The translations under genes and the position numbers were made by a program. From Pseudomonadota bacterium (GTDB lineage Bacteria; Desulfobacterota; Desulfobulbia; Desulfobulbales; SURF-16): DNA of 33,209 nucleotides. Positions within the stretch are counted from its first letter, which is position 1. The number at the start of each line of letters is the position of its first letter. The stretch spans positions 1-33,209 of the forward strand of contig JAUVQZ010000003.1 in assembly GCA_030597865.1 (NCBI GenBank). Direction: 5' to 3'. Under the pieces are notes generated by a model. It did no database searches, was not told where the DNA came from, and was given only the letters and a program-made list of their open reading frames with translations. Positions 16,026 to 29,379 of the stretch are shown here, piece by piece.

Positions 16026-19000
16026 ATGAGCAACATGCTAGATGACCAACAAAAGATACTCGTTGTGGATGACAATCCAGTTATTCTGAAGCTGATGACG
16101 AATTTTCTGGCTGAGCGCCAAGGGCATCATGTGCTCACCGCCGCAAATGGCCTGGAGGCCCTTGAGATACTCGAAGATTTTGTGCCGGATGTCATTTTTG
16201 TTGACTGGATAATGAACAAAATTTCCGGGGATCAACTGTGTAGAATCATTCGCAGCAAGCCGCAGTTGCAAGACTGCTTTTTGGTGATTCTTTCATCCAT
16301 GGCCGCTGAGGCAGAGGCCGACTTGCTTGCTGTTGGGGCAGACGCCTACATTGCCAAGGGGCCTTTCAAAAGAACAGCGCAGCATATCCAGACTTTGTTG
16401 GAGGAAGTGGCCCTCAAAACGGCAAAGGATTTCTCGCAAACCATACTGGGTCTGGATGAAGTCCACCAACGGCAGGCTACCCAAGAATTGTTGAGGCGCA
16501 ATAGGCATCACGAGCTTATTTTGCAAAACATCTCTGATGGAATTATCGAACTGGCATCAGATACCGGCATCATCGATTTGAGTCAAGGATCCCGCGTTAT
16601 TTTTGCGAACCAGGCTGCCTGCCGATTTATTGGCGGCAGCGAGGAAAAATTGTTGGCCTCCCGTTTAACGGAGCATCTAAGTGATGCAGATCAAAAGAGG
16701 CTTGAGGGAATATTAGCCGGCATTAAGGACCAACCCGTAACCCTTGGGGATGATCAGCCATTGTTGGTCAATGGTAGATATTTGAGCGTTATTTTCATCC
16801 CCTTTGTCGACAACCAAGAGAAATATGTCATTGGCGTATTGCGGGATATTACCGCCAAGAAAAAGGCTGAGATCGCCTTAGAAAAAAGTGGCCAACGTCT
16901 GCAGCTGGCAACTGAAGATGCTAAAAGAAAGGAATATTTGCTGCAAAGTATTATCACCTCCGCACCGGTGGGCATCAGCCTGGCCGTTGGTCGCAAGATC
17001 TACTGGGCCAACGAGAAGCTCAGCGAGATTACCGGCTACTCTGCGGAAGAATTACAGGGCCTGAGTGCCCGCATGTTCTATGTCAACGATGAAGAGTTTG
17101 AACGGGTTGGTCAGGAAATATACGGCTCAATAGAAAAGCACGGTACAGGCGCGGCAGAAACGCAATGGCAGCGCAAAGACGGTTCGATCATTGATGTTCT
17201 TTTAAATGCCAGCAGTGTTGATCTTCAGGATTTTACAGACAGTGTCACCTTCACCGTCCTTGATGTCACTCAGCAAAAAAAGGCCGAGCGTGCCCTGCAT
17301 GACAGCGAGCAACGGCTGCAGCTGGCCCTGGAGGGCGCCGATCTAGGCATGTGGGACTGGGATATTCAGAGCGGCAGCATTTACTATAGCCCCCGCTATC
17401 TCTCCATGCTGGGCTATGGCCCCACAGAGCTGCCCCATACCCTGGCCACCTGGGAAGGCCTCCTTCATCCAGATGACCTGCAGCCCACCAGGCAACATCT
17501 TCTCGACTGTCTGGCCCAAGAACCCTCCCGCTGGAGCCTGGAGTTTCGCCTGCGGGCCAAGGATGGTGGCTACCTGTGGATCCTCGGTCGCGGTCAGGTG
17601 GTTGACTATGGACCGGACGGCAGCCCGCTCAGGGCCGCAGGAACCCACCTCGATATCACGGATCATAAGAGGGCGGACGAGGCCTTGAAGAAGTCAGCCC
17701 GGGAGTGGTCGGCTGCCATGGATGCCTCTGACGATATCATCTATCTCCTGGATATGGAGCGCCGCATCCTCCGGGCCAACAGGGCCTTCTGCCGGATCAC
17801 AGGCACCACGGAAGAGGCCCTCATTGGCCGGTATATTGTCGATATTATGCATTTGCAGCAGGAGGAGAAGAGGCTTTGTCCTATCTGTCGGATCCAGGAG
17901 GGAAAACGGGATGCGGAGATTATCTTGGAGGCGAATGATCCAGATAATCCCACCAGCTTCCCGCTTCGGGTAGTTGTCAGGGTGGTCCGGGGTGACCAGG
18001 GCCAGCCCATAAGTATGCTGATGAATCTCCATGACCTGAGCAGCCAGCGACAGATTGAGGAATCGTTACGGCGCAGCAAGGAGGAGTGGGAGAAGACCTT
18101 TGACTCCATGAGCGATATCGTTACCATTCAGGACAGGGATATGCGCATTGTCCGGGCCAACAGGGCGGCCCACGATATGCTGGGGGCAGAGTTAGGAGAT
18201 CTCAATGGCCAGCTCTGCTACCGGCTTTTTTCCGGCACCACCACACCCTGTTCCGGCTGCCCTGAGGTCGACACCCTTAACAGCCGCGAGTCCCATTCGG
18301 CCATTATCCGCCATGAAAAGCTAGGAAAGATTTTTCTCGTTTCATCCAGCCCCATCCTTGATGACAATAAGGAGGTGCAGTACCTGGTCCATGTTGCCAA
18401 GGACATCACCGAGCAGAGACGTCTTGAAGAACAACAGGATATGCTCTACAGCCTCATTCAGCAGTCCAATGACGCCATCTATGTCATTGATCCGGTCAGC
18501 GCCGACATCCTCTTTGTCAACCGCCAGGGCCTTGAGAATCTTGGCTATGGGTGCGATGAGATGGTGAACCTGACCATCTACGACATCGCCCATCGGCTGG
18601 CAAGCGAGGAGGATTGGCAGCAAAGTCTGGCGACGATCAGGAGGCACGGTACCTATCTCTTTGAGACCAGCCAGAGGAGGAAGGATAATTCCCTGCTGCC
18701 GGTGGAGGTCAATGCCCGGGTCAGCCGCTATAACGGCCAGGATTTTGTCGTTGCCGTGGTGCGCGACATCAGCGAGCGCAAGAGGGCCGCGGAAAAGGTG
18801 CTCCAGGAGAAGAATAAGCTGGAGGCCGTGGTCTCGGCCCTGGGCAGCGGTCTTACCTTCCAGGATCGCCATTTCAGGGTTATTTACCAGAATAATGTCC
18901 ATAAAGAGATGCAGGGTGATCAGCTGGGGAAATTCTGTTATGAGGCCTATCATGGTCGGGATAAGGTCTGCCCGGGTTGCCTGCTGGCCAAATGTTTTGT

Positions 19001-20297
19001 CGATGGTAAGCTTCATCAGCATGAAGTTGCCATGGACAAGGGTGGTGCCACCATCTACCTGGATATTTCAGCCAGCCCCTACCGGGATGGTAGTGGTGAG
19101 ATCATCGGCGGCGTGGAGAGCATCCGCGACATCACTGACCGCAAGGGGCTGGAGGCCCAGGTCCAGCAGGGCCAGAAGATGGAGGCCATGGGCACCCTGG
19201 CCGGCGGCATTGCCCATGACTTCAACAATATCCTGGCCGCCATCATGGGCTTTAATGAGATGGCCCTCCAGGACACGCCCGAGGACAACCCGATCCATCG
19301 GATGTTGAAACATGTGGCCAAGGGCGCGGAACGGGCCCGGGACCTGGTCCAGCAGATCCTCACCTTCAGCCGCAAGGCGGATCAGCACAAGGCCCCCATG
19401 CTCCTGCAGCCGGTCATCAAGGAGGTCTTAAAGCTGATGCGGGCCACCATACCCGCCACCATTGCCGTCAAGAGTAATATTGCCCCTGAGTGCGGCCTGG
19501 TTCTGGCCGATCCCACCCTGATCCACCAGTTGGTGATGAATCTCTGCACCAACTCCTATCATGCCATGCGGGAGACAGGCGGTCAGTTGTCCATCACTCT
19601 CCGCCCGCTGACGGTGGGCAGGGAGCTTGCTGAATCCATTGTGGATTTGCAGGAGGGCCCCTCTGTGCAGATCACGGTCAGCGACACCGGCCACGGCATG
19701 GAGCAGGCCACCCTTAAACGGATCTTTGAACCCTATTACACCACCAAGGCCCAGGGTGAGGGGACCGGCCTGGGTCTGGCTGTTGTCCACGGCATTGTCA
19801 CCGGTCTGGGCGGGGCAATCACCGTGGCCAGCGAGGTGGGGGGCGGTACCTCCTTCGATGTTTATTTGCCCCAGGCAGGAGAAGGGGAGCTCTGTGAAGT
19901 CCCTGGAAATAGTGGGGCTCTTGAGGGCCAGGGCCATATATTGCTGGTGGATGATGAAGAGGAGATCATCTCCTTTGGAAAGGAGATGCTTTCCCGTCTG
20001 GGCTATCAGGTCACCAGTTTTAACAGCAGTAGGGAGGCCCTGGAGGCCTTCAGGCAGAGTCCGAACGAATTTGAGCTGATCATCACCGACCAGACCATGC
20101 CTGAACTCACCGGCCTTGACCTGGCCCAGAGGATCATGGCGATACGGCCGGAGATGGCCATTCTTCTCATAAGCGGCTATAGTGTACAGGTGGATGCGGA
20201 GTCGTGCCGGGCCATGGGGCTCAGCGGTTATCTGAAAAAACCTTTTAATGGCTATGAGATGGGCGAGGCGGTAAGGAAGATTTTGAGCAGGGCCTAG
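16026..20297 (+). CDS. Hybrid sensor histidine kinase: REC - about 7 PAS - HisKA - HATPase_c - REC
   Basis: N-terminal REC 'KILVVDDNPVILKLM...VDWIMNKISGDQL'; PAS modules ending in D(I/V)T/S..K..E; HisKA 'MGTLAGGIAHDFNNILAAIMGF'; 'LVMNLCTNSYHAM', 'DTGHGM', 'GTGLGLAVVHGIV'; C-terminal REC 'ILLVDDEEEI...'. Confidence 0.95.
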   Translation: MSNMLDDQQKILVVDDNPVILKLMTNFLAERQGHHVLTAANGLEALEILEDFVPDVIFVDWIMNKISGDQLCRIIRSKPQLQDCFLVILSSMAAEAEADLLAVGADAYIAKGPFKRTAQHIQTLLEEVALKTAKDFSQTILGLDEVHQRQATQELLRRNRHHELILQNISDGIIELASDTGIIDLSQGSRVIFANQAACRFIGGSEEKLLASRLTEHLSDADQKRLEGILAGIKDQPVTLGDDQPLLVNGRYLSVIFIPFVDNQEKYVIGVLRDITAKKKAEIALEKSGQRLQLATEDAKRKEYLLQSIITSAPVGISLAVGRKIYWANEKLSEITGYSAEELQGLSARMFYVNDEEFERVGQEIYGSIEKHGTGAAETQWQRKDGSIIDVLLNASSVDLQDFTDSVTFTVLDVTQQKKAERALHDSEQRLQLALEGADLGMWDWDIQSGSIYYSPRYLSMLGYGPTELPHTLATWEGLLHPDDLQPTRQHLLDCLAQEPSRWSLEFRLRAKDGGYLWILGRGQVVDYGPDGSPLRAAGTHLDITDHKRADEALKKSAREWSAAMDASDDIIYLLDMERRILRANRAFCRITGTTEEALIGRYIVDIMHLQQEEKRLCPICRIQEGKRDAEIILEANDPDNPTSFPLRVVVRVVRGDQGQPISMLMNLHDLSSQRQIEESLRRSKEEWEKTFDSMSDIVTIQDRDMRIVRANRAAHDMLGAELGDLNGQLCYRLFSGTTTPCSGCPEVDTLNSRESHSAIIRHEKLGKIFLVSSSPILDDNKEVQYLVHVAKDITEQRRLEEQQDMLYSLIQQSNDAIYVIDPVSADILFVNRQGLENLGYGCDEMVNLTIYDIAHRLASEEDWQQSLATIRRHGTYLFETSQRRKDNSLLPVEVNARVSRYNGQDFVVAVVRDISERKRAAEKVLQEKNKLEAVVSALGSGLTFQDRHFRVIYQNNVHKEMQGDQLGKFCYEAYHGRDKVCPGCLLAKCFVDGKLHQHEVAMDKGGATIYLDISASPYRDGSGEIIGGVESIRDITDRKGLEAQVQQGQKMEAMGTLAGGIAHDFNNILAAIMGFNEMALQDTPEDNPIHRMLKHVAKGAERARDLVQQILTFSRKADQHKAPMLLQPVIKEVLKLMRATIPATIAVKSNIAPECGLVLADPTLIHQLVMNLCTNSYHAMRETGGQLSITLRPLTVGRELAESIVDLQEGPSVQITVSDTGHGMEQATLKRIFEPYYTTKAQGEGTGLGLAVVHGIVTGLGGAITVASEVGGGTSFDVYLPQAGEGELCEVPGNSGALEGQGHILLVDDEEEIISFGKEMLSRLGYQVTSFNSSREALEAFRQSPNEFELIITDQTMPELTGLDLAQRIMAIRPEMAILLISGYSVQVDAESCRAMGLSGYLKKPFNGYEMGEAVRKILSRA

Positions 20298-20316
20298 GCC
20301 CTGCGGCATTGAGATC

Positions 20317-21702
20317 ATGGCAATAATTCTTATCATAGACGACGACCAGGAGCTGGCCACCATGCTCTCCATGATGGTGCAGCGCCTGGGCCATGAGGCC
20401 GTGACGGCCGCGACCCTGGAGAGTGGGGTCATGAAGGCGGCTGAGGGCAGCTTTGATGTGGTATTTCTCGATGTCAGGATGCCGGATGGCAACGGCCTGG
20501 AGAGGATACCGGAGATTCGCAGCACGGCCTCGGCCCCGGAGGTTATCATCATCACCGGTGTTGGCGACAGGAGCGGTGCCGAGCTTGCCATCATGAACGG
20601 GGCCTGGGACTATATTGAAAAGGCCTCCCTGGCTAGGGACTTCGAACTCCCCCTGGCCCGGGCCCTCCAGTACCGGCAGGAGAAGGGCCACAAGACGCCG
20701 GTGGCCCTGGAGCGCAACGAGATCATCGGCAAGAGCCCTCGGCTCCAGGGTTGCCTTGATCTTGTGGCCCAGGCAGCGGCCAGTCTGACCAATGTCCTGA
20801 TCACCGGCGAGACCGGCACCGGCAAGGAGCTCTTTGCCAAGGCTATTCACCAGAATAGTGAGCGGTTCACAAAGAGTTTTGTGGTGGTGGACTGCGCGGC
20901 CCTGCCTGACAGCCTGGTGGAAGGCATGCTCTTTGGCCATGTCAAGGGCGCCTTCACCGGCGCTGAGCGGGATCAGGACGGCCTGATCAGGCAGGCAGAT
21001 AGGGGCACCCTCTTTCTTGATGAGGTGGGAGAACTGCCCCTTAACCTGCAAAAGGCCTTTTTGCGAGCCCTGCAGGAGCGTCGTTTCCGGCCCCTGGGTG
21101 GTAAGCAGGAGGTGAGCAGCGACTTCAGGCTGATTGCGGCAACCAACCGCGATCTCTCTGCCATGGTCAAGGAGGGCAGCTTCCGCCAGGACCTTCTCTA
21201 CCGCCTCAACTCCCTGCACATCAGTCTGCCTGCCCTGCACCAGCGCCTGGAGGATATCCGGCCCCTGGCCCTCTCCTTTATCACCCGGTTCTGCGAACAG
21301 TACCGGATCCCGGCCAAGGGCATCACCTCAGACTTTTTCGAGGCCCTGGAGGCCCACGACTGGCCCGGCAATGTCAGGGAGTTGAAAAACACCATTGAAC
21401 AGGTCCTGGCCAGGTCCGGAGATGATCCCAACCTCTTTGCCAATCATCTGCCCATTAATATCCGGGTCCGCTTAACCACCTCCCATCTGCCGCCCGATAC
21501 TCCCGGCCAGGAAGAGCCAGTCCTGGCAAGCCTGATTGGCGGCGACCTTCCCTCCCTGAAGGAGTTTCGCAACCAGGCCTATCAGGCCTATGCCCAGCAG
21601 CTCCATGGCCAGTATGGCCACGACATCAAGGAGGCCTGTCAGGTCTCCGGCCTCTCCCGCTCCCGCCTCTACGCCTTTCTCCAAGACCATAAAAAATCAT
21701 AG
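20317..21702 (+). CDS. Sigma-54-dependent NtrC-family response regulator (REC-AAA+-HTH)
   Basis: REC 'IILIIDDDQEL...VVFLDVRMPDGNGL'; GETGTGKE; GAFTGAERDQDGLIRQADRGTLFLDEVGE; C-terminal HTH 'DIKEACQVSGLSRSRLYAFLQ'. 19 bp after the hybrid kinase. Confidence 0.95.
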   Translation: MAIILIIDDDQELATMLSMMVQRLGHEAVTAATLESGVMKAAEGSFDVVFLDVRMPDGNGLERIPEIRSTASAPEVIIITGVGDRSGAELAIMNGAWDYIEKASLARDFELPLARALQYRQEKGHKTPVALERNEIIGKSPRLQGCLDLVAQAAASLTNVLITGETGTGKELFAKAIHQNSERFTKSFVVVDCAALPDSLVEGMLFGHVKGAFTGAERDQDGLIRQADRGTLFLDEVGELPLNLQKAFLRALQERRFRPLGGKQEVSSDFRLIAATNRDLSAMVKEGSFRQDLLYRLNSLHISLPALHQRLEDIRPLALSFITRFCEQYRIPAKGITSDFFEALEAHDWPGNVRELKNTIEQVLARSGDDPNLFANHLPINIRVRLTTSHLPPDTPGQEEPVLASLIGGDLPSLKEFRNQAYQAYAQQLHGQYGHDIKEACQVSGLSRSRLYAFLQDHKKS

Positions 21703-21765: not shown

Positions 21766-21812
21766 AAAACAGGAGCACCTGTCCTTGTTTTCAGGACAGG
21801 TGCTCCTGTTTT
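21766..21812. terminator. 20-bp perfect inverted repeat, terminator-like stem-loop
   Basis: aaaacaggagcacctgtcct - tgttttc - aggacaggtgctcctgtttt. Confidence 0.75.
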
Positions 21813-21991
21813 CTGCGCCCCACCCCTTTGCCCCACCTCTTCGTGGTGGTCTACCTGCCTGATATTAAAAGAAATATTTGAAAAATATTAGCGCAGTCAT
21901 TGGTTGGCATGAATTTTCTATAAGGTACGGGGACAGGGGGGAGTTTACGTTTTTAGTTATAATGCTGAAGCATCGAGGGAGAGACGTTTTA

Positions 21992-22783
21992 ATGGCGGAA
22001 CAAACAACGAGTGAGAGTGAGATAGTAGAGGAATCTGCAGAGCATGGTGCCATGGGCGGCGAACTCACCGGGTTCAGTGTGTCCAGCCTTATGCAGATGC
22101 TTCAGGCCGATAACCGTACCATCCTGGCTGATATCAAAGGCAAAGGGCTGCAGTGTGGAATCATCTATTTTGCCGAGGGTGAGCCGATAGATGCATCGTG
22201 CGGCAGCTTAAAGGGGGACAGTGCAATTTTGGCAATGATTGAGTGGGAGTCGGTGAATATCAGCTTTCAGGCACCCCCCACAAAGCCGCCCGCCAAGACA
22301 GTGAAACACTCCTCCATGGGTCTTCTCATGGAAGGCATGAGGTTGCGGGATGAGCGCAATGTCGCTCAACCTGAAATACGTGAAGAACAGACAAATCAAA
22401 ACAGTAGAGAAGGGGACAACGAAATGGCTGGATTAAAACAGATGATGAAGGATATCGCCGATGAGATGGATGGCGTCATAGCGGTTGGTGTTGTGGGTTT
22501 GGATGGTATGACCATTGCCGCCCATAATCCCACCGGAGTTGACATGGATGTTATTTCGGCAAAATTTGCCATGGTTATGAAGCTTGTGGAAAAGTCTGTT
22601 GATGACCTGAAAAGTTTAGGAAATTTTGAAGAAAATCTTGTCCAGACTGCCAATTCCTGGATGCTCACCCGCTTTTTGGACAAGCAGTATTACTTGGCCT
22701 GCATCGTCAGCCGCGAGGGGACCCTTGGTAATGTCCGGCTGGTGGCCAAGAAGTATCTCGATCAGGTCCAACGCGCCCTGTAG
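21992..22783 (+). CDS. DUF4388 (PATAN-like) + Roadblock/LC7 fusion protein
   Basis: N-terminal 'GELTGFSVSSLMQMLQADNRTILADIKGKGLQCGIIYFAEGEPIDASCGSLKGDSAILAMIEW' is DUF4388-like. C-terminal 'DEMDGVIAVGVVGLDGMTIAAHNPTGVDMDVISAKFAMVMKL' is Roadblock-like. Confidence 0.8.
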   Translation: MAEQTTSESEIVEESAEHGAMGGELTGFSVSSLMQMLQADNRTILADIKGKGLQCGIIYFAEGEPIDASCGSLKGDSAILAMIEWESVNISFQAPPTKPPAKTVKHSSMGLLMEGMRLRDERNVAQPEIREEQTNQNSREGDNEMAGLKQMMKDIADEMDGVIAVGVVGLDGMTIAAHNPTGVDMDVISAKFAMVMKLVEKSVDDLKSLGNFEENLVQTANSWMLTRFLDKQYYLACIVSREGTLGNVRLVAKKYLDQVQRAL

Positions 22784-22826
22784 AGCTGTATACAACCGGA
22801 AATCTGAAAAAGTTTGAGGAGAGAAG

Positions 22827-23300
22827 ATGGCAACTGAAGAACAGAAAAAACAGAATATGATGCGGCTCATGACCCTGATGATCGGTGGCATGGCCAAGGC
22901 CCTTTATGACCTTTTTGGCGAAAGCGCCTTTGCCACCATGACAGAGGTGGGCAAGACCCTGCTCGCCATCATGGAGGATGAAATGGGCCTGGAGTTAGAC
23001 AGTGAAAACCCTGAAGAGGTTATCATGGAAATCGGCAGGATTTTCACCGATGAATTGGGTTTTGTCGCAGGCTTTGATGTGAAACGCGATGGCAACGACA
23101 TTATCTTGTCGGTGGACAGATGTGCCGGCTGGAACCTTACCCAGTCCATCATGAAGCTTGGGGTTGATGTGCCCTTTACCTGTCCGATCATGAATGTGGG
23201 CCAGGCAGCCCTATTAAAGATGGGCATCCATGCCCAGAAGAAAATCGCCCCCATTGAAGAGGTTCGTGGCTCAGCCATCACCTTCTCCATTATCGACTAA
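22827..23300 (+). CDS. conserved-looking hypothetical protein, possibly V4R-like
   Basis: 157-aa ORF with RBS (gaggagag), within the operon. 'VDRCAGW' and 'FTCPIMNVGQAALLKMG' are loosely reminiscent of V4R-like domains; family uncertain. Confidence 0.6.
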   Translation: MATEEQKKQNMMRLMTLMIGGMAKALYDLFGESAFATMTEVGKTLLAIMEDEMGLELDSENPEEVIMEIGRIFTDELGFVAGFDVKRDGNDIILSVDRCAGWNLTQSIMKLGVDVPFTCPIMNVGQAALLKMGIHAQKKIAPIEEVRGSAITFSIID

Positions 23301-23344
23301 GGGAGCAATCTTCGTCTCCAAGGGACAAAGACAGGTGAATCTCC

Positions 23345-24682
23345 ATGGCAGATGCTAGTCTCCAGACAGAGTCATGGCCGTTGGCCGGTGAAGCTCTCCA
23401 TGAAGAGCAGCCCATTTTCTCATGCCGGCCGGATTCCCTGTCCTTTGCCCAGGCAACATACTATCAGGATCTCCTCTATCGTACCCTGAAGATCGGGACA
23501 GAGCTTGAGTTTGCCCTGCCACAAAGGGTCAGGCGTGAGGATCTTGAAAAGGAGTTGACTGCTGAACTCAAGCCATCCCAGGATATGAACAACCTGGGAC
23601 GGCTTGGTGTTTTTGATATTTCCAAGGAACATTGCGGTATTGAGATTCGGGTGATCGGTCGCCATCCTCACTGGGATGCCCAGGTTCACCAGTACCGCCA
23701 GATCATGGCTCCCCTCTGGCGCAACAAGGTGCGCATGCGCCCTACCTGCGGTCTCCATTTTCACCTCCTTGGTGTCGGCCTCTCTGAACCGGTGCCGGAA
23801 ATCATTCTTGCCAATCTCTGGAACATCATGCGGCGCTATGGACCTGGCCTGAAATTTCTGACCAGCGGCGGTGAGTCCACGGCTGCCCTGTGCCGGCGAC
23901 GCCAGCATAATGCCCATCAGGAATTTATGCGCCGAGGCCCGGAGTCCCTCACCGTTGCGGAGATCCAGCAGCACCTCAAGAAAAGTTTCGACGTTCCTGA
24001 GCACCAAAACTTTTTCAACCTGGAGCATCTTCGTTTTAACGATAAGGGAGAGATTTCCACCTTCCATGTGGAGTTTCGTTTCCCGGATGGTGATCTCTCC
24101 CCCCTGTCCATCACTGCCAAGGTCTTTCTCTTTTTGGTCATGATGTTAAAGGCGGTGGAAATTTCAAAATTCGGCCTTCTCCATGTGGGCAAGACATCCC
24201 AGTGGCAACGCAAGAAAGAACTGTTGGACCTGATCAGCAATAATGACGGCAAGCTGGCCACCAGCGACACTGCGGCCTGTCTGCCATACCTTGACGAGTA
24301 CCGTCAAAACGCCTCAAGTTTATTACGATTTTTAAAATCAATCTTTATTCTTCTGGATAATCCCGCCGAGCTCATTCTCCAGTCCCTGGCTGAGAGCCCT
24401 ATATCCCTGCGGCGTCATAGGGGGCTTGACTGGCAACAGATCGATCAGGAGCTTCAGGGGCTGGTTGGCAGCGAGGAGAAGATGGATGAAGGTGATTACA
24501 AGCTCTGCAAAATAATTGAAATGGGCCTGGTGGAGCAAAAGGAAGATTTTCAGAGTTGGCTGGTCAGTGCCGCCTATCTCTGTAACTGTCCCCCTGAAGA
24601 GGTCAGCAAACGGCTGGAAAAATATGAGCGCCGCAACCCTATCTGGAGCCAGAAGTTGGGGTGTATGGTGTTTTTTCGATGA
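23345..24682 (+). CDS. Amidoligase-family (COOH-NH2 ligase, glutamine-synthetase-fold-like) protein
   Basis: 'KIGTELEFALP', 'HCGIEIRVIG', 'RMRPTCGLHFHLLGV', 'RRRQHN' match the amidoligase pattern (G-x-E-[IL]-E ... CGLHxH ... R) from memory. Confidence 0.75.
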   Translation: MADASLQTESWPLAGEALHEEQPIFSCRPDSLSFAQATYYQDLLYRTLKIGTELEFALPQRVRREDLEKELTAELKPSQDMNNLGRLGVFDISKEHCGIEIRVIGRHPHWDAQVHQYRQIMAPLWRNKVRMRPTCGLHFHLLGVGLSEPVPEIILANLWNIMRRYGPGLKFLTSGGESTAALCRRRQHNAHQEFMRRGPESLTVAEIQQHLKKSFDVPEHQNFFNLEHLRFNDKGEISTFHVEFRFPDGDLSPLSITAKVFLFLVMMLKAVEISKFGLLHVGKTSQWQRKKELLDLISNNDGKLATSDTAACLPYLDEYRQNASSLLRFLKSIFILLDNPAELILQSLAESPISLRRHRGLDWQQIDQELQGLVGSEEKMDEGDYKLCKIIEMGLVEQKEDFQSWLVSAAYLCNCPPEEVSKRLEKYERRNPIWSQKLGCMVFFR

Positions 24683-24718
24683 AAGATAAGAGAGGCCTTT
24701 TGGCATGAGGAGCAGGGA

Positions 24719-25504
24719 ATGTGTGGTTTAGCCGGGTGTCTTATCGGCGCAGGGGCAGGCCGGCAGGAGCGGGCGAGGATCAAGGAGATCTTCCTTGCCA
24801 ATCTCCTGGCCAATGAACAACGGGGCAGGGAGGCAACCGGCGTGGTTGCCTGCCAGAGGGATGGCTCTTTTTCCTATGAAAAGGGGGCCATGCCTGCCTC
24901 ATCCTTTGTTGAACAGGAGGGGTGTAAAAACTTCTTCAGCGAAAAAATATGCGGGGAAACCGTTATCCTGCTGGGCCATACCCGGGATCCAACCAAGGGC
25001 ACGGTGCATAATAACGACAATAACCACCCCATTGTGGTGGGGGAAACCGTGGGGATCCATAACGGGGTCATCTCCAACGATGATTCCATCTTTGTGACGC
25101 TGATGCAGGACGGCCAGGATCGGCCCAGGATCGGTTCGGTGGACAGTGAGGCCATTTTCGCCCTGTTGGATCAGGTAGATGCCAACCAGCCTCTTGCCGG
25201 GTTCTGCAAGGGGCTCCAGCAGGCAAGCAGCCAGCTCCTGGGTTCATTCACCACCCTGTTCTTTAACAGAAAGTTCCCCACGACACTTTTTTGTTTACGC
25301 TACGAGAATCCGATCTCGATCCATTATGATCAAGATCTTAAGAGCCTCTTTTTCTCTTCACGCTATGTCTTTTTGCGTAAAACCTTTGGTCGGGCGGTCA
25401 TCTCCCCGGGCATGCCCGGCCGGACAGGTTTTGTTTTTGAGGCTGAAAAAATGAAAACTCAGGGCAAGACGCCAACCCTTACCTTTGACCTAAGTCAGAA
25501 CTAA
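24719..25504 (+). CDS. Class II glutamine amidotransferase (Ntn hydrolase)
   Basis: MCGLAGCLIG (catalytic Cys2), 'NEQRGREATGVVA', 'LLGHTRDPTKGTVHNNDNNHPIVVGETVGIHNGVISND'. Confidence 0.9.
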   Translation: MCGLAGCLIGAGAGRQERARIKEIFLANLLANEQRGREATGVVACQRDGSFSYEKGAMPASSFVEQEGCKNFFSEKICGETVILLGHTRDPTKGTVHNNDNNHPIVVGETVGIHNGVISNDDSIFVTLMQDGQDRPRIGSVDSEAIFALLDQVDANQPLAGFCKGLQQASSQLLGSFTTLFFNRKFPTTLFCLRYENPISIHYDQDLKSLFFSSRYVFLRKTFGRAVISPGMPGRTGFVFEAEKMKTQGKTPTLTFDLSQN

Positions 25505-25519
25505 AATACAGAGGCAAAA

Positions 25520-25915
25520 ATGAACGTAGGATTAAAGGATATCTTGGTACACCTGGAGAAAGAGCTTCCCGGCTTTGTGGCCTCTGCGGTTGTTTCGGTG
25601 GAGGATGGCCTTCCCCTGGCAGAGTATACCAAGAATAGTAATTTTGAGGCCGGAGAGGCTGCCGCCTATCTGGCCAGCATCGTTAAATCAAATCGCAAGG
25701 CCATTAAACTGCTGGAAGGTGGCCAGGTTACCGATGATCTGCTGATCACCACGGACAAGAATTATTTTTTGATCAGGCATGGTGTTGATAAGTCTTTTTT
25801 TATCTTTCTGATGACCTCCAAAAGTGAATGGCTTGGCAAGGCCCGGCTGCTGATCAAGAAGTATGAAGCCCTCATCAATTACGTCATGGAGAAAAAAATG
25901 AGCAGCCAGGAATAG
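25520..25915 (+). CDS. Roadblock/LC7-like protein
   Basis: MNVGLKDILVHLEKELPGFVASAVVSVEDGLPLAEYTKNSNFEAGEAAAYLASIVKSNRKAIKLL... Confidence 0.75.
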   Translation: MNVGLKDILVHLEKELPGFVASAVVSVEDGLPLAEYTKNSNFEAGEAAAYLASIVKSNRKAIKLLEGGQVTDDLLITTDKNYFLIRHGVDKSFFIFLMTSKSEWLGKARLLIKKYEALINYVMEKKMSSQE

Positions 25916-26024: not shown

Positions 26025-26213
26025 GGGCCGTTTTCGGATGCTGAAGGGGCCTCCCAGGTTATCAGGGGTATGGCCAAGATGACAAGCGGCGTCAAGATCC
26101 TGTTGGATATCGACAGGGCATTATCATCAGAGGAGCTCATGGCCCTCAGTCAGCCAGCCCAAGGCAAGACATTTAAAGTTTTTATAGAGCACTTCAGAGA
26201 GATAAAAAGATGA
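26025..26213 (+). pseudogene. CheW C-terminal remnant
   Basis: Open frame after a stop at 26022: [62 protein letters not shown]. 'VIRGMAKM..GVKILLDIDRALSSEEL' is the CheW C-terminal signature. The stop overlaps the next ATG (ATGA). Confidence 0.7.
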
Positions 26214-28105
26214 ATTTCAAAAACATGACAATCGGTAAACGAATCACCCTGGGTTATGCCTTTATCATAGCCCTTCTCGTTGTCCTTGCCGCTACCAGCT
26301 ACACAGGGGTGGGCGGCATTGTTAGCAACGCCGCCGAGGTCATTGACGGCAATAAGCTGAATGGCCTCCTGACCCAGAGGGAGGTGGATCATCTCAACTG
26401 GGTTGCCCAGGTCAACAGCCTGCTCACCGATGACAGTATCACCACCCTGACCGTGGAGATGGATGACCATCAATGCGGCTTAGGCAAGTGGCTCTACAGT
26501 GATGAGCGCCTGGAGGCCGAAGGGCTGGTGCCCAGCCTGGCCCCCCTCCTGAAAAAGATCGAAGAGCCCCATTATCGGCTCCATAATTCCGCCATAGAGA
26601 TCAAAGAGGTGTTCAGGCAGGCAGACGTCTCCCTGCCTTTGAGGTTGACCGAGATTGAGGCGGCCCACCTGGCCTGGGCCGGTAGGATCCGGGACGGCCT
26701 TATTGCTGGCAACGCTAGCCTGAATAATGTTCAGACCGATCCCGGCAAATGTGTCCTGGGCACGTTTCTCACCTCGCCTGAGGGCCGCAGGGCCTATGAG
26801 GCTGGGGATGGGGATTTTAAAAGGGTGTGGGGGGGCATCCCGGCCTCCCATAACCGCATGCACCAGTCTGCCAGCCGCATCAAGGAGGCCCTGGCCAGCG
26901 GAGACAGCGGTTCTGCCAAGCTGATCTTCCAGGAGGAGACGAGACCCATGCTGGCCGCCACCGTAAAGTCCTTACGGGATCTGAGCACAGTGGCCGGCCA
27001 TGAGCTCAAGGGCATGCAGCAGGCCAACCAGATCTATGCCCAGCAGACCATGCCCGCCCTCCATGAGGTGCAGGATCTCCTCCACCAGGTCAGCGCTGAG
27101 GCCAAGAGCAACATCATGACCGATGGGGCCATGCTGCAGGCAGCCAGCTCCACCCGTCTCAAGGTATCGGTGCTGGCCCTGTTCATCATCGCGGCCGCCG
27201 TCCTTATCGCCTTTTTTACGGCCACACGGCTCATTACCCTGTTGAGCGGTATCGTTAGCCAGCTGGGCCAGGGCTCCTCTGAGGTGAACTCCGCCTCCGG
27301 ACAGATCGCCGCCGCCAGTCACAGTTTGGCCGAAGGGGCCTCGGAGCAGGCCGCCACCCTGGAGGAGACCTCCTCTGCCCTGGAGGAGGTGTCATCCCTG
27401 ACCCGCCAGAACGCCGACAACACCGGTCAGGCGGATATCCTCATGACAGAGACCAGGGAGGCCATTGGTACGGCAGATCACTCCATGCAGGAGCTGAGCC
27501 GTTCCATGGCCGAGATCTCCCAGGCCAGCAGCGAGACCCAGAGGATCGTCAAGACCATTGATGAGATTGCCTTCCAGACCAACCTCCTGGCCTTGAATGC
27601 CGCGGTGGAGGCGGCCCGGGCCGGCGAGGCCGGCGCTGGTTTTGCCGTGGTGGCCGATGAGGTGCGGAACCTGGCCCTGCGGGCGGCTCAGTCTGCCAAG
27701 GAGACCTCGGGGCTCATTGATTCCACCGTGGAAAAGGTGGATCAGGGTGCGGAACTGTTGGTTGCGACAGGTGAGGATTTTTCCCGGGCTGCCCAGTCCT
27801 CCGAGAGGATGAGCACCCTGGTCAGCGAGATTACCACGGCCTCGGCTGAGCAGGCCCAGGGAATCGACCAGGTCAATAGGGCGGTGAATGAGATTGACAG
27901 CGTCACCCAGCTCAATGCCGCCGCCGCTGAGCAGTCTGCCTCGGCAGCCGAGGAACTCACCGGCCAGGCCGCCGCCATGCAGGATATTGTTGCCAATCTC
28001 CAGGCCATGGTGGGCGGCAGGGTAGGGGCTGAGGCGGCAAAGGCCAGTCCAGTCCAGACAGCAGTGGGGTCTGCCGCACCACAGCTCCAGCTCAGTGAGA
28101 AGTAG
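26210..28105 (+). CDS. methyl-accepting chemotaxis protein with tandem CZB-like motifs between its two TM segments
   Basis: TM1 '[16 protein letters not shown]', TM2 '[18 protein letters not shown]'. Between them two copies of HxxW...C.LG..L...H..xH. Then the MCP signalling hairpin '[41 protein letters not shown]'. Confidence 0.9.
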
Positions 28106-28185
28106 GGGCAACAGGGGCGGCGCTTGAAAAGTGGCCACAATAACGCAGTGAGAGAAGATACCCCCGTAACCAACGGTAAACGGAC

Positions 28186-29379
28186 ATGAACAGAAACAGA
28201 GTGGATCTCGCCACAATAAAGGAACGAGTCCTGGTGGTTGATGATGACCAGGATGTCCTTGCGATGCTCCAGTTCCAGTTGCTTAAATTGGGACTAGAGG
28301 CCGACATGGTCAACAGTGGCAGGCAGGCCGTTGATTTACTGGCGGATCATGGGTATGGCCTGGTTATCACCGACATAGGGATGCCGGAAATGAATGGCAT
28401 TGAGCTGCTGCGCTCTATCCGGCAGCATCAGCCCCATACGGATGTCCTGGTTATCTCGGGTTATTGTGACCTTTACAGCTTCACAGATATTATTGCTGAA
28501 GGTGCTGCTGACTTCATTACCAAACCATTTGAGCGGGATGAACTGAAGGCCAAGCTCCAACGTATCTTCAGGGAGAGGATGCTTGTTGCTGATTTGGCCC
28601 GGGTAAAGGAAAAGGAAAAATCGTTTTTCCTCCATATCGTTGAGTCATTAGCCATTTCCCTTGATGAGAAGGATCAATATACCCATGGCCATTCGCGTCG
28701 CGTTACCAATCTGGCCTTGGAGATGGCAGAGCATGTAACGGAAGAGACGGTGGATGTTGACCTGCTGAGTCTCTGTGGCATGCTCCATGACATCGGCAAG
28801 ATAGGTGTCCCTGATAGGATCTTGACAAGCCCGGACACACTTTCAGAGGAGGAGTTTGAAATCATTAAGAAACATCCGGTACAGGGCGCCCATATCCTCC
28901 AGCCCATGGAGTCGGATGAGAGGATAGCTGAGATCTCAAAGGTCATCAAGCACCACCATGAACGCTTTGACGGTACAGGCTATCCAAGTGGCCTCAGGGG
29001 AACCGCTATTCCTCTATTGGCCAGGATAATTGCCATTGCCGATAGCTTTGATGCCATGACCTCAGGCCGTTCTTACCGCGAGGGGTTAAGTATTGAGACT
29101 GCCATTGAGGAGATACGAAAGAATATGGGATCGCAATTTGATCCTGTTTTGGCGGAGAAGTTTATTTATCTCATGGAGGGCAATCAGGACCAGACTCCTT
29201 GTTCTCGCCTGTTGGAATGTGACATTTTCCTAAAGATAACAAAGAACGATGTCTCAAGGTTTTATAAAATGCAGTACTGCTTTGCCGACTTCAGGGGCTG
29301 CGCCCGTTATAAGATAGGCGATGGGGATGATTCCTCACTTAACCTGCTGCCTGATGGTACCTTTATCATGGAGCGCTAG
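28186..29379 (+). CDS. REC-HD-GYP response regulator (putative c-di-GMP phosphodiesterase) with Cys-rich C-terminus
   Basis: REC 'VLVVDDDQDVLAML...VITDIGMPEMNGIELL'; HD-GYP 'LHDIGKIGVPDRIL', 'KHHHERFDGTGYPSGLRG'; C-terminal 'CSRLLECDIF...YCFADFRGCARYK'. Confidence 0.93.
   Translation: MNRNRVDLATIKERVLVVDDDQDVLAMLQFQLLKLGLEADMVNSGRQAVDLLADHGYGLVITDIGMPEMNGIELLRSIRQHQPHTDVLVISGYCDLYSFTDIIAEGAADFITKPFERDELKAKLQRIFRERMLVADLARVKEKEKSFFLHIVESLAISLDEKDQYTHGHSRRVTNLALEMAEHVTEETVDVDLLSLCGMLHDIGKIGVPDRILTSPDTLSEEEFEIIKKHPVQGAHILQPMESDERIAEISKVIKHHHERFDGTGYPSGLRGTAIPLLARIIAIADSFDAMTSGRSYREGLSIETAIEEIRKNMGSQFDPVLAEKFIYLMEGNQDQTPCSRLLECDIFLKITKNDVSRFYKMQYCFADFRGCARYKIGDGDDSSLNLLPDGTFIMER

Follow-up and report, generated by a model that had tools for sequence, protein, structure and literature searches.

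A glutamine synthetase-fold ligase, a class II glutamine amidotransferase and Roadblock and Bet3-like proteins in one operon: a possible amide-bond-forming module in a small-GTPase circuit of Desulfobulbales

The stretch of DNA analyzed here, 33,209 nucleotides from a genome of the Desulfobulbales (hereafter the window), raises the question of what a ligase and a glutaminase might be doing in the same operon as Roadblock proteins. Bacterial small GTPases are controlled by Roadblock proteins with GAP or GEF activity together with response regulators, and covalent amide chemistry within such a circuit would, if true, be new. The initial annotation of the locus had proposed an undescribed peptide or protein amidation system under signalling control. 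Our best guess is that signal-gated amidation or peptide ligation acts on a circuit composed of DUF4388, Roadblock, Bet3-like and MglA proteins.

The operon encodes, in order, a 263-aa DUF4388-Roadblock protein (21992..22783, with an alternative TTG start at 21878), a 157-aa protein (22827..23300), a 445-aa putative ligase (23345..24682), a 261-aa class II glutamine amidotransferase (GAT-II; 24719..25504) and a 131-aa Roadblock protein (25520..25915). All five ORFs lie on the + strand and are separated by gaps of 43, 44, 36 and 15 bp, in agreement with the earlier description of five consecutive same-strand genes with short gaps. Between an NtrC-type gene and the operon, a terminator-like + strand hairpin can be read from the sequence (21769..21812), in which perfect 16-bp arms (21769-21784 and 21794-21809) are followed by a run of T's; it suggests that the operon is transcribed separately. 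Because that neighbor is of the NtrC type, a sigma-54 promoter was looked for 5' of the operon, and no consistent site was observed. The 294-bp gap 3' of the last gene was also considered as a source of a small peptide substrate, a candidate that was rejected as the gap holds only 30- and 47-codon ORFs on the + strand.

The 445-aa protein had been called an amidoligase from motifs only, and structure prediction coupled with Foldseek comparison upholds that call: the protein is predicted to be a COOH-NH2 ligase with the fold of the glutamine synthetase (GS)/gamma-glutamylcysteine synthetase superfamily. Specifically, all 17 matches of the AlphaFold2 model (pLDDT 80.8, pTM 0.84) in the PDB at E<1e-3 are PafA, Dop, GS, YbdK and GshA-type ligases or their relatives, with PafA the best match (best E 2.8e-5, with low TM-scores of 0.3-0.5), and phage amidoligases are matched in a viral library. 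An alignment of 13 ligase sequences, including a phage-like homologue of 33% identity, revealed the invariants K49-x-G51-x-E53-x-E55, G98-x-E100, C135-x2-H138-x-H140, H241-x-E243-x-R245 and S307-D308-T309, of which E53/E55, E100, H138/H140 and E243/R245 follow the superfamily motif order, an order shared with phage Amidoligase_2. The cellular and phage ligases align in the same motif register, with a profile-profile E of 0.008. No Pfam family was matched above cut-off by hmmscan, Amidoligase_2 (PF12224) included, and a sequence-profile search of the PDB gave no match; the PF12224 null in the window's own genome is uninformative by itself, since control genomes also lack a match.

Similarly, the assignment of the fourth gene to the GAT-II Ntn-hydrolases is borne out by Pfam GATase_6 (E 2e-9) and by the GlmS glutaminase domain 1xff, matched in a profile search at E 4.8e-11. 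The catalytic Cys2, together with R89, H103, N115, G116 and D142, is invariant in 10 genomes, and all GlmS-type glutaminase residues checked are kept, while in place of the HTRW-motif Trp this family has Asp, Glu, Lys, Asn or Ala. A role as ammonia donor was first suggested for the enzyme; that such a role would be obligatory is less probable, because two Electrothrix genomes retain the ligase without an intact GAT-II, the gene being absent in G123 and a remnant in G125.

The 157-aa protein, initially listed as unknown, is predicted to have a Bet3/V4R (TRAPPC3) fold. Its AlphaFold2 model (pLDDT 79.9, pTM 0.74) contains the elements H-H-E-E-H-H-E-E, with helices packed on a four-stranded sheet in the Bet3 topology, and the best Foldseek matches are TRAPPC3/Bet3 (E 2e-5 to 2e-4), along with the V4R domains of PoxR and MopR. 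In a 12-sequence alignment C99 and C119 are invariant. No Pfam family, V4R and Bet3 models included, scored above cut-off, and the family's sequence profile found no match in the PDB. V4R domains feature conserved glycine pairs with three residues between them (PMC2253512), and no G-x3-G occurs among the invariant glycines of the 157-aa protein.

The two remaining genes encode Roadblock proteins, as had been proposed. The first matches both DUF4388 (PF14332, E 1.2e-11), which we take to be the PATAN domain, and Roadblock (PF03259, E 1.7e-6), and in most relatives its product carries an N-terminal receiver (REC) domain. The 131-aa protein matches Robl_LC7 below threshold (18.9 bits, where the cut-off is 23; E 0.001). 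It is encoded in 12 of the 12 ligase-bearing genomes of the order and in 45 of 259 genomes overall, and it is not a ligase-only partner, a candidate role that was rejected because the gene also adjoins REC-DUF4388-Roadblock genes at sites without a ligase. The proposal of signalling control was prompted in part by neighboring two-component, chemoreceptor and HD-GYP genes. In a species of the same genus these genes are contiguous and the five-gene site is empty, so that they lie outside the unit; what stands of the proposal is the link inside the operon, provided by the (REC-)DUF4388-Roadblock protein.

In a survey of the order to which the cable bacteria (Ca. Electrothrix) belong, 12 of 263 genomes encode the ligase, and each of the 12 also has the Bet3-like protein together with the two Roadblock proteins; the Bet3-like gene occurs in 16 of the 263 overall and adjoins the ligase gene in most loci. 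The co-linear block recurs in Ca. Electrothrix and across three families of the order, and two genomes of a separate family in the phylum carry the cassette as well. Presence of the genes is patchy within genera, yet joint: the ligase, the Bet3-like gene, the GAT-II and the 131-aa Roadblock are all missing from three further species of the genus to which the window belongs. In addition, divergence of the five operon proteins is correlated (r 0.69-0.96). The DUF4388-Roadblock and Bet3-like core is present without ligase and GAT-II in genus g44, indicating that the core does not need amide chemistry. With a ligase fold found and the ligase, GAT-II and Roadblock genes co-conserved in related genomes, the initial proposal has withstood both of the observations on which it had been staked in advance.

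The statement that no MglA-like GTPase accompanies the Roadblock proteins is true of the window; three MglA-like genes lie elsewhere in the genome, and mglA adjoins the operon in two relatives. At locus L020 there is a 4-bp overlap between the operon's last Roadblock gene and an mglB-like Roadblock gene, with mglA following downstream, while at locus L032, from a distant relative, mglA lies directly upstream of the operon. Around the Electrothrix loci, no mglA was observed in the few kb examined to either side. Because MglA is present in 206 of 259 genomes of the order, co-occurrence alone is uninformative; it is adjacency in two relatives, in two arrangements, that suggests a tie between the operon and an MglA-type GTPase. 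This adjacency, like the folds, motif conservation and co-conservation described above, was computed.

Taken together, these data are best accommodated, at a probability that we put at about 0.4, by a signal-controlled, amide-bond-forming module that is built on a Roadblock/Bet3-like scaffold and serves an MglA-type small-GTPase circuit. The (REC-)DUF4388-Roadblock protein would take in a signal, which where REC is present may be phosphorylation by an adjoining histidine kinase, and hand it on to the Roadblock layer, with the Bet3/V4R-fold protein as a putative ligand-binding or scaffolding partner. The ligase would convert a carboxylate and ATP to an acyl-phosphate and join it to an amine, while GAT-II would cleave glutamine to supply the ligase with ammonia, or act in reverse as an amidase. 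The likeliest target would be a peptide or protein component of the GTPase circuit (a Roadblock protein, the GTPase or an effector), amidation of which may reset polarity or motility output. The joint action of the two enzymes, the direction of their chemistry, the target and the motility output are what we infer here. A more specific version, in which ligase and GAT-II form a reversible amidation or peptide-ligation switch on a Roadblock/Bet3-like/MglA assembly with TRAPP-like parts and set polarity or motility, cable bacteria included, is doubtful.

A similarly doubtful possibility is that no protein is modified at all, and that ligase and GAT-II instead make a small amidated or glutamyl-type ligand of the Bet3/V4R protein, which in turn steers the Roadblock proteins. 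The V4R domains of PoxR and MopR bind small ligands (PMC2253512, PMC10933270), the GS-fold relatives YbdK and GshA work on small molecules, and ligase and Bet3-like genes are usually adjacent; however, the Bet3-like protein of genus g44, encoded with neither enzyme, would need another ligand, or none. A further reading is nitrogen or glutamine sensing, in which GAT-II and ligase would be glutamine- and ATP-responsive regulators of the Roadblock-GTPase circuit and catalysis would be secondary. Glutamine is a standard signal of nitrogen status, the whole glutamine site of GAT-II is kept and the rest of the operon consists of signalling proteins, but a mere sensor need not retain a full catalytic set including Cys2, and GAT-II is missing or broken in two Electrothrix genomes; this reading is improbable.

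Just as improbable is a domesticated phage trait, whereby a pair acquired from a phage alters the cell surface or prevents superinfection and sits in a signalling operon only by coincidence. A ligase beside a GlmS-type GAT-II is indeed a phage gene pair (PMC3890496, PMC10580990), and a phage-like contig carries a distant homologue of the window ligase next to two COOH-NH2 ligases. No close homologue was found, however, in 50,697 phage records, 72,556 plasmid records or viral contigs, and the pair keeps the same signalling partners from family to family, with correlated divergence. That five unrelated genes are adjacent by accident is scarcely credible: accidental neighbors do occur at this locus, namely the two-component, chemoreceptor and HD-GYP genes on its flanks, but the return of the same block in a distant family and in 12 genomes of the order, patchy yet joint, refutes a chance cluster.

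The GAT-II of the operon possesses the full set of glutaminase residues of the GlmS domain, and differs in standing alone without the isomerase half and in the replaced HTRW Trp. The ligase shares its fold with PafA and Dop of pupylation, while the operon contains GAT-II in place of Dop and is without a Pup-like small protein having a conserved C-terminal Glu/Gln: comparison of the C-termini of the five operon proteins in ten genomes revealed none that is Pup-like, and the small proteins were rejected as Pup-type modifiers because their C-termini are not conserved.

The term undescribed must be qualified, as the ligase and GAT-II pair is already known from phages LUZ24 and phiEco32 (PMC3890496, PMC10580990), and phage amidoligase and GAT-II systems were predicted in Iyer et al. 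2009, as related in PMC10580990 and PMC11253131. Like the operon, LUZ24 gp16-gp22 and phiEco32 phi32_83-86 place a GS-fold ligase (GxExE, CxxHxH, ExR) beside a GlmS-type GAT-II. The phage sets also contain a PF14395 ligase, to which LUZ24 adds a RimK-type ATP-grasp and a gamma-glutamyl cyclotransferase. No partner of the Roadblock, DUF4388 or Bet3-like kinds was seen in the phage sets inspected, and the cellular ligase fails the PF12224 search. To our knowledge, the substrate of the phage pair is unproven. The pair is otherwise known mainly from phages and is here joined to Roadblock and Bet3-like proteins, whose kind regulates small Ras-like GTPases. The operon extends it to a cellular setting in which its partners hint at a substrate. 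The candidate novelty is the merger: in a literature search to which Iyer et al. 2009 was external, no description of a ligase/GAT-II pair merged with a DUF4388/Roadblock/Bet3/MglA circuit was found, nor any paper on cable bacteria with Roadblock or amidoligase proteins. The operon offers a concrete, testable gene set in cable bacteria and their sulfur-cycling relatives.

The predicted fold of the 157-aa protein likens it to TRAPP, to Asgard TRAPPC3 and to bacterial V4R domains, although it lacks a sequence-level V4R/Bet3 match and the paired-glycine motif. Accompanied by Roadblock proteins, and in two relatives by an MglA-type small GTPase, it recalls the components of eukaryotic TRAPP; TRAPP-type genes of the Asgard archaeon MK-D1 generally lie in separate operons (PMC10933270). 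PATAN proteins occur in the neighborhood of MglB homologues, and response regulators of the PATAN type bind PilB, the motor of the type IV pilus (PMC4316618, PMC10519157). The papers covered describe neither an amide-bond enzyme nor a Bet3-like protein in MglA-MglB(-RomR) modules and PATAN/MglB neighborhoods (PMC4316618); with these the operon shares Roadblock proteins, DUF4388 (PATAN) and response-regulator domains, joined in two relatives by MglA.

Five genes on the forward strand (21992-25915), separated by gaps of 43, 44, 36 and 15 bp, encode a DUF4388-Roadblock protein (21992-22783), a 157-aa protein (22827-23300), a 445-aa protein (23345-24682), a class II glutamine amidotransferase (GAT-II; 24719-25504) and a 131-aa Roadblock protein (25520-25915). 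A hairpin with perfect 16-bp arms and a run of T's behind it (21769-21812) lies between the upstream NtrC-type gene and this block, and 294 bp separate the block from the downstream chemoreceptor gene, so that the five genes look like an operon of their own. The source genome is fragmented (299 contigs, 92.7% complete) and belongs to an order whose members include the cable bacteria Ca. Electrothrix.

The genes on either side, encoding a hybrid multi-PAS kinase, an NtrC-type regulator, a chemoreceptor and an HD-GYP regulator (16026-21702 and 26210-29379), were initially annotated as the signaling setting of the operon. Orthologs of all four lie together in a genome of the same genus (L074 4208-12280), where the NtrC-type and HD-GYP genes are spaced by 453 bp and the cassette is absent between them. 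The flanking genes are thus placed outside the system, the cassette having been either inserted among them in the window or lost from the related genome. The window chemoreceptor (26210-28105) matches the zinc-binding CZB domain twice, most strongly at residues 61-131 in its N-terminal part, and its ortholog in L074, 64% identical, has the same kinase and regulator genes as neighbors. The block in Electrothrix and other relatives is flanked divergently by the gene for a different histidine kinase, of REC-GAF-PAS type, and its first gene there includes a REC domain.

No family match to the 445-aa protein was found in Pfam, NCBIfam or PHROG. Its AlphaFold2 model is good (pLDDT 80.8, pTM 0.84), and every one of the 17 PDB entries matched by Foldseek at E<1e-3 is a GS/GCS-fold ligase or relative (among them PafA, Dop, glutamine synthetase, YbdK, GshA and bifunctional glutathione synthetase), with TM-scores of only 0.3-0.5 that place it in the superfamily and not in a family. 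At that level the model upholds the initial amidoligase call, and the protein is predicted to be a GS/GCS-fold ligase. Phage amidoligases make up most of the named top Foldseek matches in a viral library; phage Amidoligase_2 proteins share the motif order of the window ligase, and profile comparison aligns the two, weakly, in matching motif register (E 0.008). Homologs were gathered from 12 genomes of the order and three more of the phylum, and in an alignment of 13 of these Lys49, Gly51, Glu53, Glu55, Gly98, Glu100, Cys135, His138, His140, His241, Glu243, Arg245 and Ser307-Asp308-Thr309 are invariant, even in a distant homolog on a phage-like contig. The end of that contig (L033 3122-9851, genome G287), judged phage-like by eye from SSB-, helicase-, uracil-DNA glycosylase- and DNA polymerase III-like genes, carries, within 7 kb, genes for two PF14395 COOH-NH2 ligases as well as the distant homolog, three ligase genes in all.

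The GAT-II assignment is likewise sustained. The protein is a stand-alone glutaminase domain of the GlmS type, and a search with its family profile recovers the glutaminase of E. coli GlmS (5e-11). The residues Cys2, Arg89, His103, Asn115-Gly116 and Asp142 are invariant across ten genomes. Phage GAT-II proteins are recognizable relatives (24-32% identity).

The 157-aa protein, initially listed as unknown, indeed has no sequence-level match in Pfam or the PDB, but its model (pLDDT 79.9, with lower values for the N-terminal helix; helix-helix-strand-strand-helix-helix-strand-strand) is not featureless. Its top PDB matches by Foldseek are TRAPPC3/Bet3 (E 2e-5 to 2e-4), accompanied by the bacterial V4R domains of PoxR/MopR and a Thorarchaeal TRAPPC3. 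Since the matches also include, at lower TM-scores, a few designed proteins and some H-NOX domains, the predicted Bet3/V4R fold leans on the abundance of Bet3/V4R entries with TM near 0.6. The family alignment did not show the glycine pairs that PMC2253512 describes for V4R/Bet3. Cys99 and Cys119 are invariant; a zinc site has been reported in Thor-TRAPPC3 (PMC10933270), and by analogy these two cysteines could bind metal.

Conservation of the cassette is sparse and consistent. The ligase is present in 12 of 263 genomes of the order, all of which carry the Bet3-like gene (16 genomes overall) and the 131-aa Roadblock gene (45/259 overall), and ten of which have a full GAT-II adjoining the ligase. 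Assuming independent draws, the probabilities of these overlaps for the Bet3-like and 131-aa Roadblock genes, respectively, are 1e-17 and 2e-10 by genome, values too small owing to the relatedness of the genomes, and 5e-7 and 6e-4 by genus; the stronger argument is therefore the pattern of presence and absence. All four genes are absent from three other species of the window's genus, and only two species of a second genus (g20) were found to have the ligase. The same gene set occurs in two genomes (G513 and G450) from a different family of the phylum, with ligase, GAT-II and Bet3-like protein 42-50% identical to those of the window, so that the proposed co-conservation of ligase, GAT-II and Roadblock genes holds beyond the order. 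Pairwise divergences of the five proteins are correlated (r 0.69-0.96). An exception is Ca. Electrothrix aarhusensis, in which the Bet3-like gene sits on a different contig, near a gene (L058 9428-12838) for a protein of 1136 aa whose N-terminal domain is caspase-like (Peptidase_C14) and whose C-terminal domain is lipase/hydrolase-like. GAT-II is missing from one Electrothrix genome (G123, L022 9291-9454) and reduced to a C-terminal remnant in another (G125, L023 9353-9646), and in G450 the ligase is split into two frames (L032 8252-9543) by mutation or assembly error; these are signs of decay. A small protein with two CW domains accompanies the cassette in Electrothrix and the distant family (L002 6038-6379 and L032 7857-8132, both NF045718; L031 10082-10357, assigned by similarity), and was not found beside the cassette in the window.

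The absence of an MglA-like GTPase, as first annotated, holds for the window only. In another genome of the family (L020), the operon's last Roadblock gene shares 4 bp with an mglB-like Roadblock gene, behind which comes a gene for an MglA-type GTPase, and the window's own genome carries this mglB-mglA cluster on another contig (C104), with MglA 86% identical. The two clusters (L020 2096-6615; L059 3123-7600) share mglB-like and mglA genes, a long protein (580 aa in L059; 714 aa and very acidic in L020), a protein of 270 aa that contains cysteines, and one more small protein. Directly upstream of the DUF4388-Roadblock gene in G450 (L032) lie a distinct MglA-type gene and a pair of Roadblock-like genes, one of them above the Pfam Roadblock cut-off. 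MglA occurs in 206 of 259 genomes of the order, making its mere presence uninformative; that two unlike arrangements adjoin the operon favors a functional link over shared history.

GS-fold ligases generally use ATP to activate a carboxylate to an acyl-phosphate, which an amine then attacks, and GlmS-type GAT-II domains release ammonia from glutamine. Combined, the two enzymes would carry out glutamine-dependent amidation; alternatively, the ligase may form a product that GAT-II could undo. Retention of the ligase without an intact GAT-II gene in two Electrothrix genomes shows that GAT-II is dispensable at least there, whether through a different source of ammonia, a different amine or decay. 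Because Roadblock, Bet3-like and GTPase proteins are the most constant company of the enzymes, the leading candidate for their target is a protein of that circuit. The main rival, in which the enzymes make a small ligand for the Bet3-like protein, is opposed by genus g44, which lacks both ligase and GAT-II but retains the Bet3-like gene and the DUF4388-Roadblock gene, accompanied by another Roadblock and a two-CW protein. Together with the occurrence of the 131-aa Roadblock gene elsewhere beside REC-DUF4388-Roadblock, NtrC and kinase genes, this makes the ligase and GAT-II look like a cassette added to a pre-existing REC-DUF4388-Roadblock circuit.

Taken together, the parts of the cassette and their conservation are established, while its chemistry is a proposal. 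A literature search covering few subscription journals returned no paper joining the ligase/GAT-II pair with MglB-PATAN neighborhoods, and none on Roadblock or amidoligase genes of cable bacteria. DUF4388 we take to be the PATAN domain. MglB-PATAN neighborhoods are already known, PATAN proteins being sometimes encoded near MglA and MglB genes (PMC4316618), and PilB, the pilus motor, is a binding partner of PATAN response regulators (summarized in PMC10519157). The ligase/GAT-II pair is in turn known from phages (PMC3890496, PMC10580990), in which its proposed role is modification of the cell wall against superinfection.
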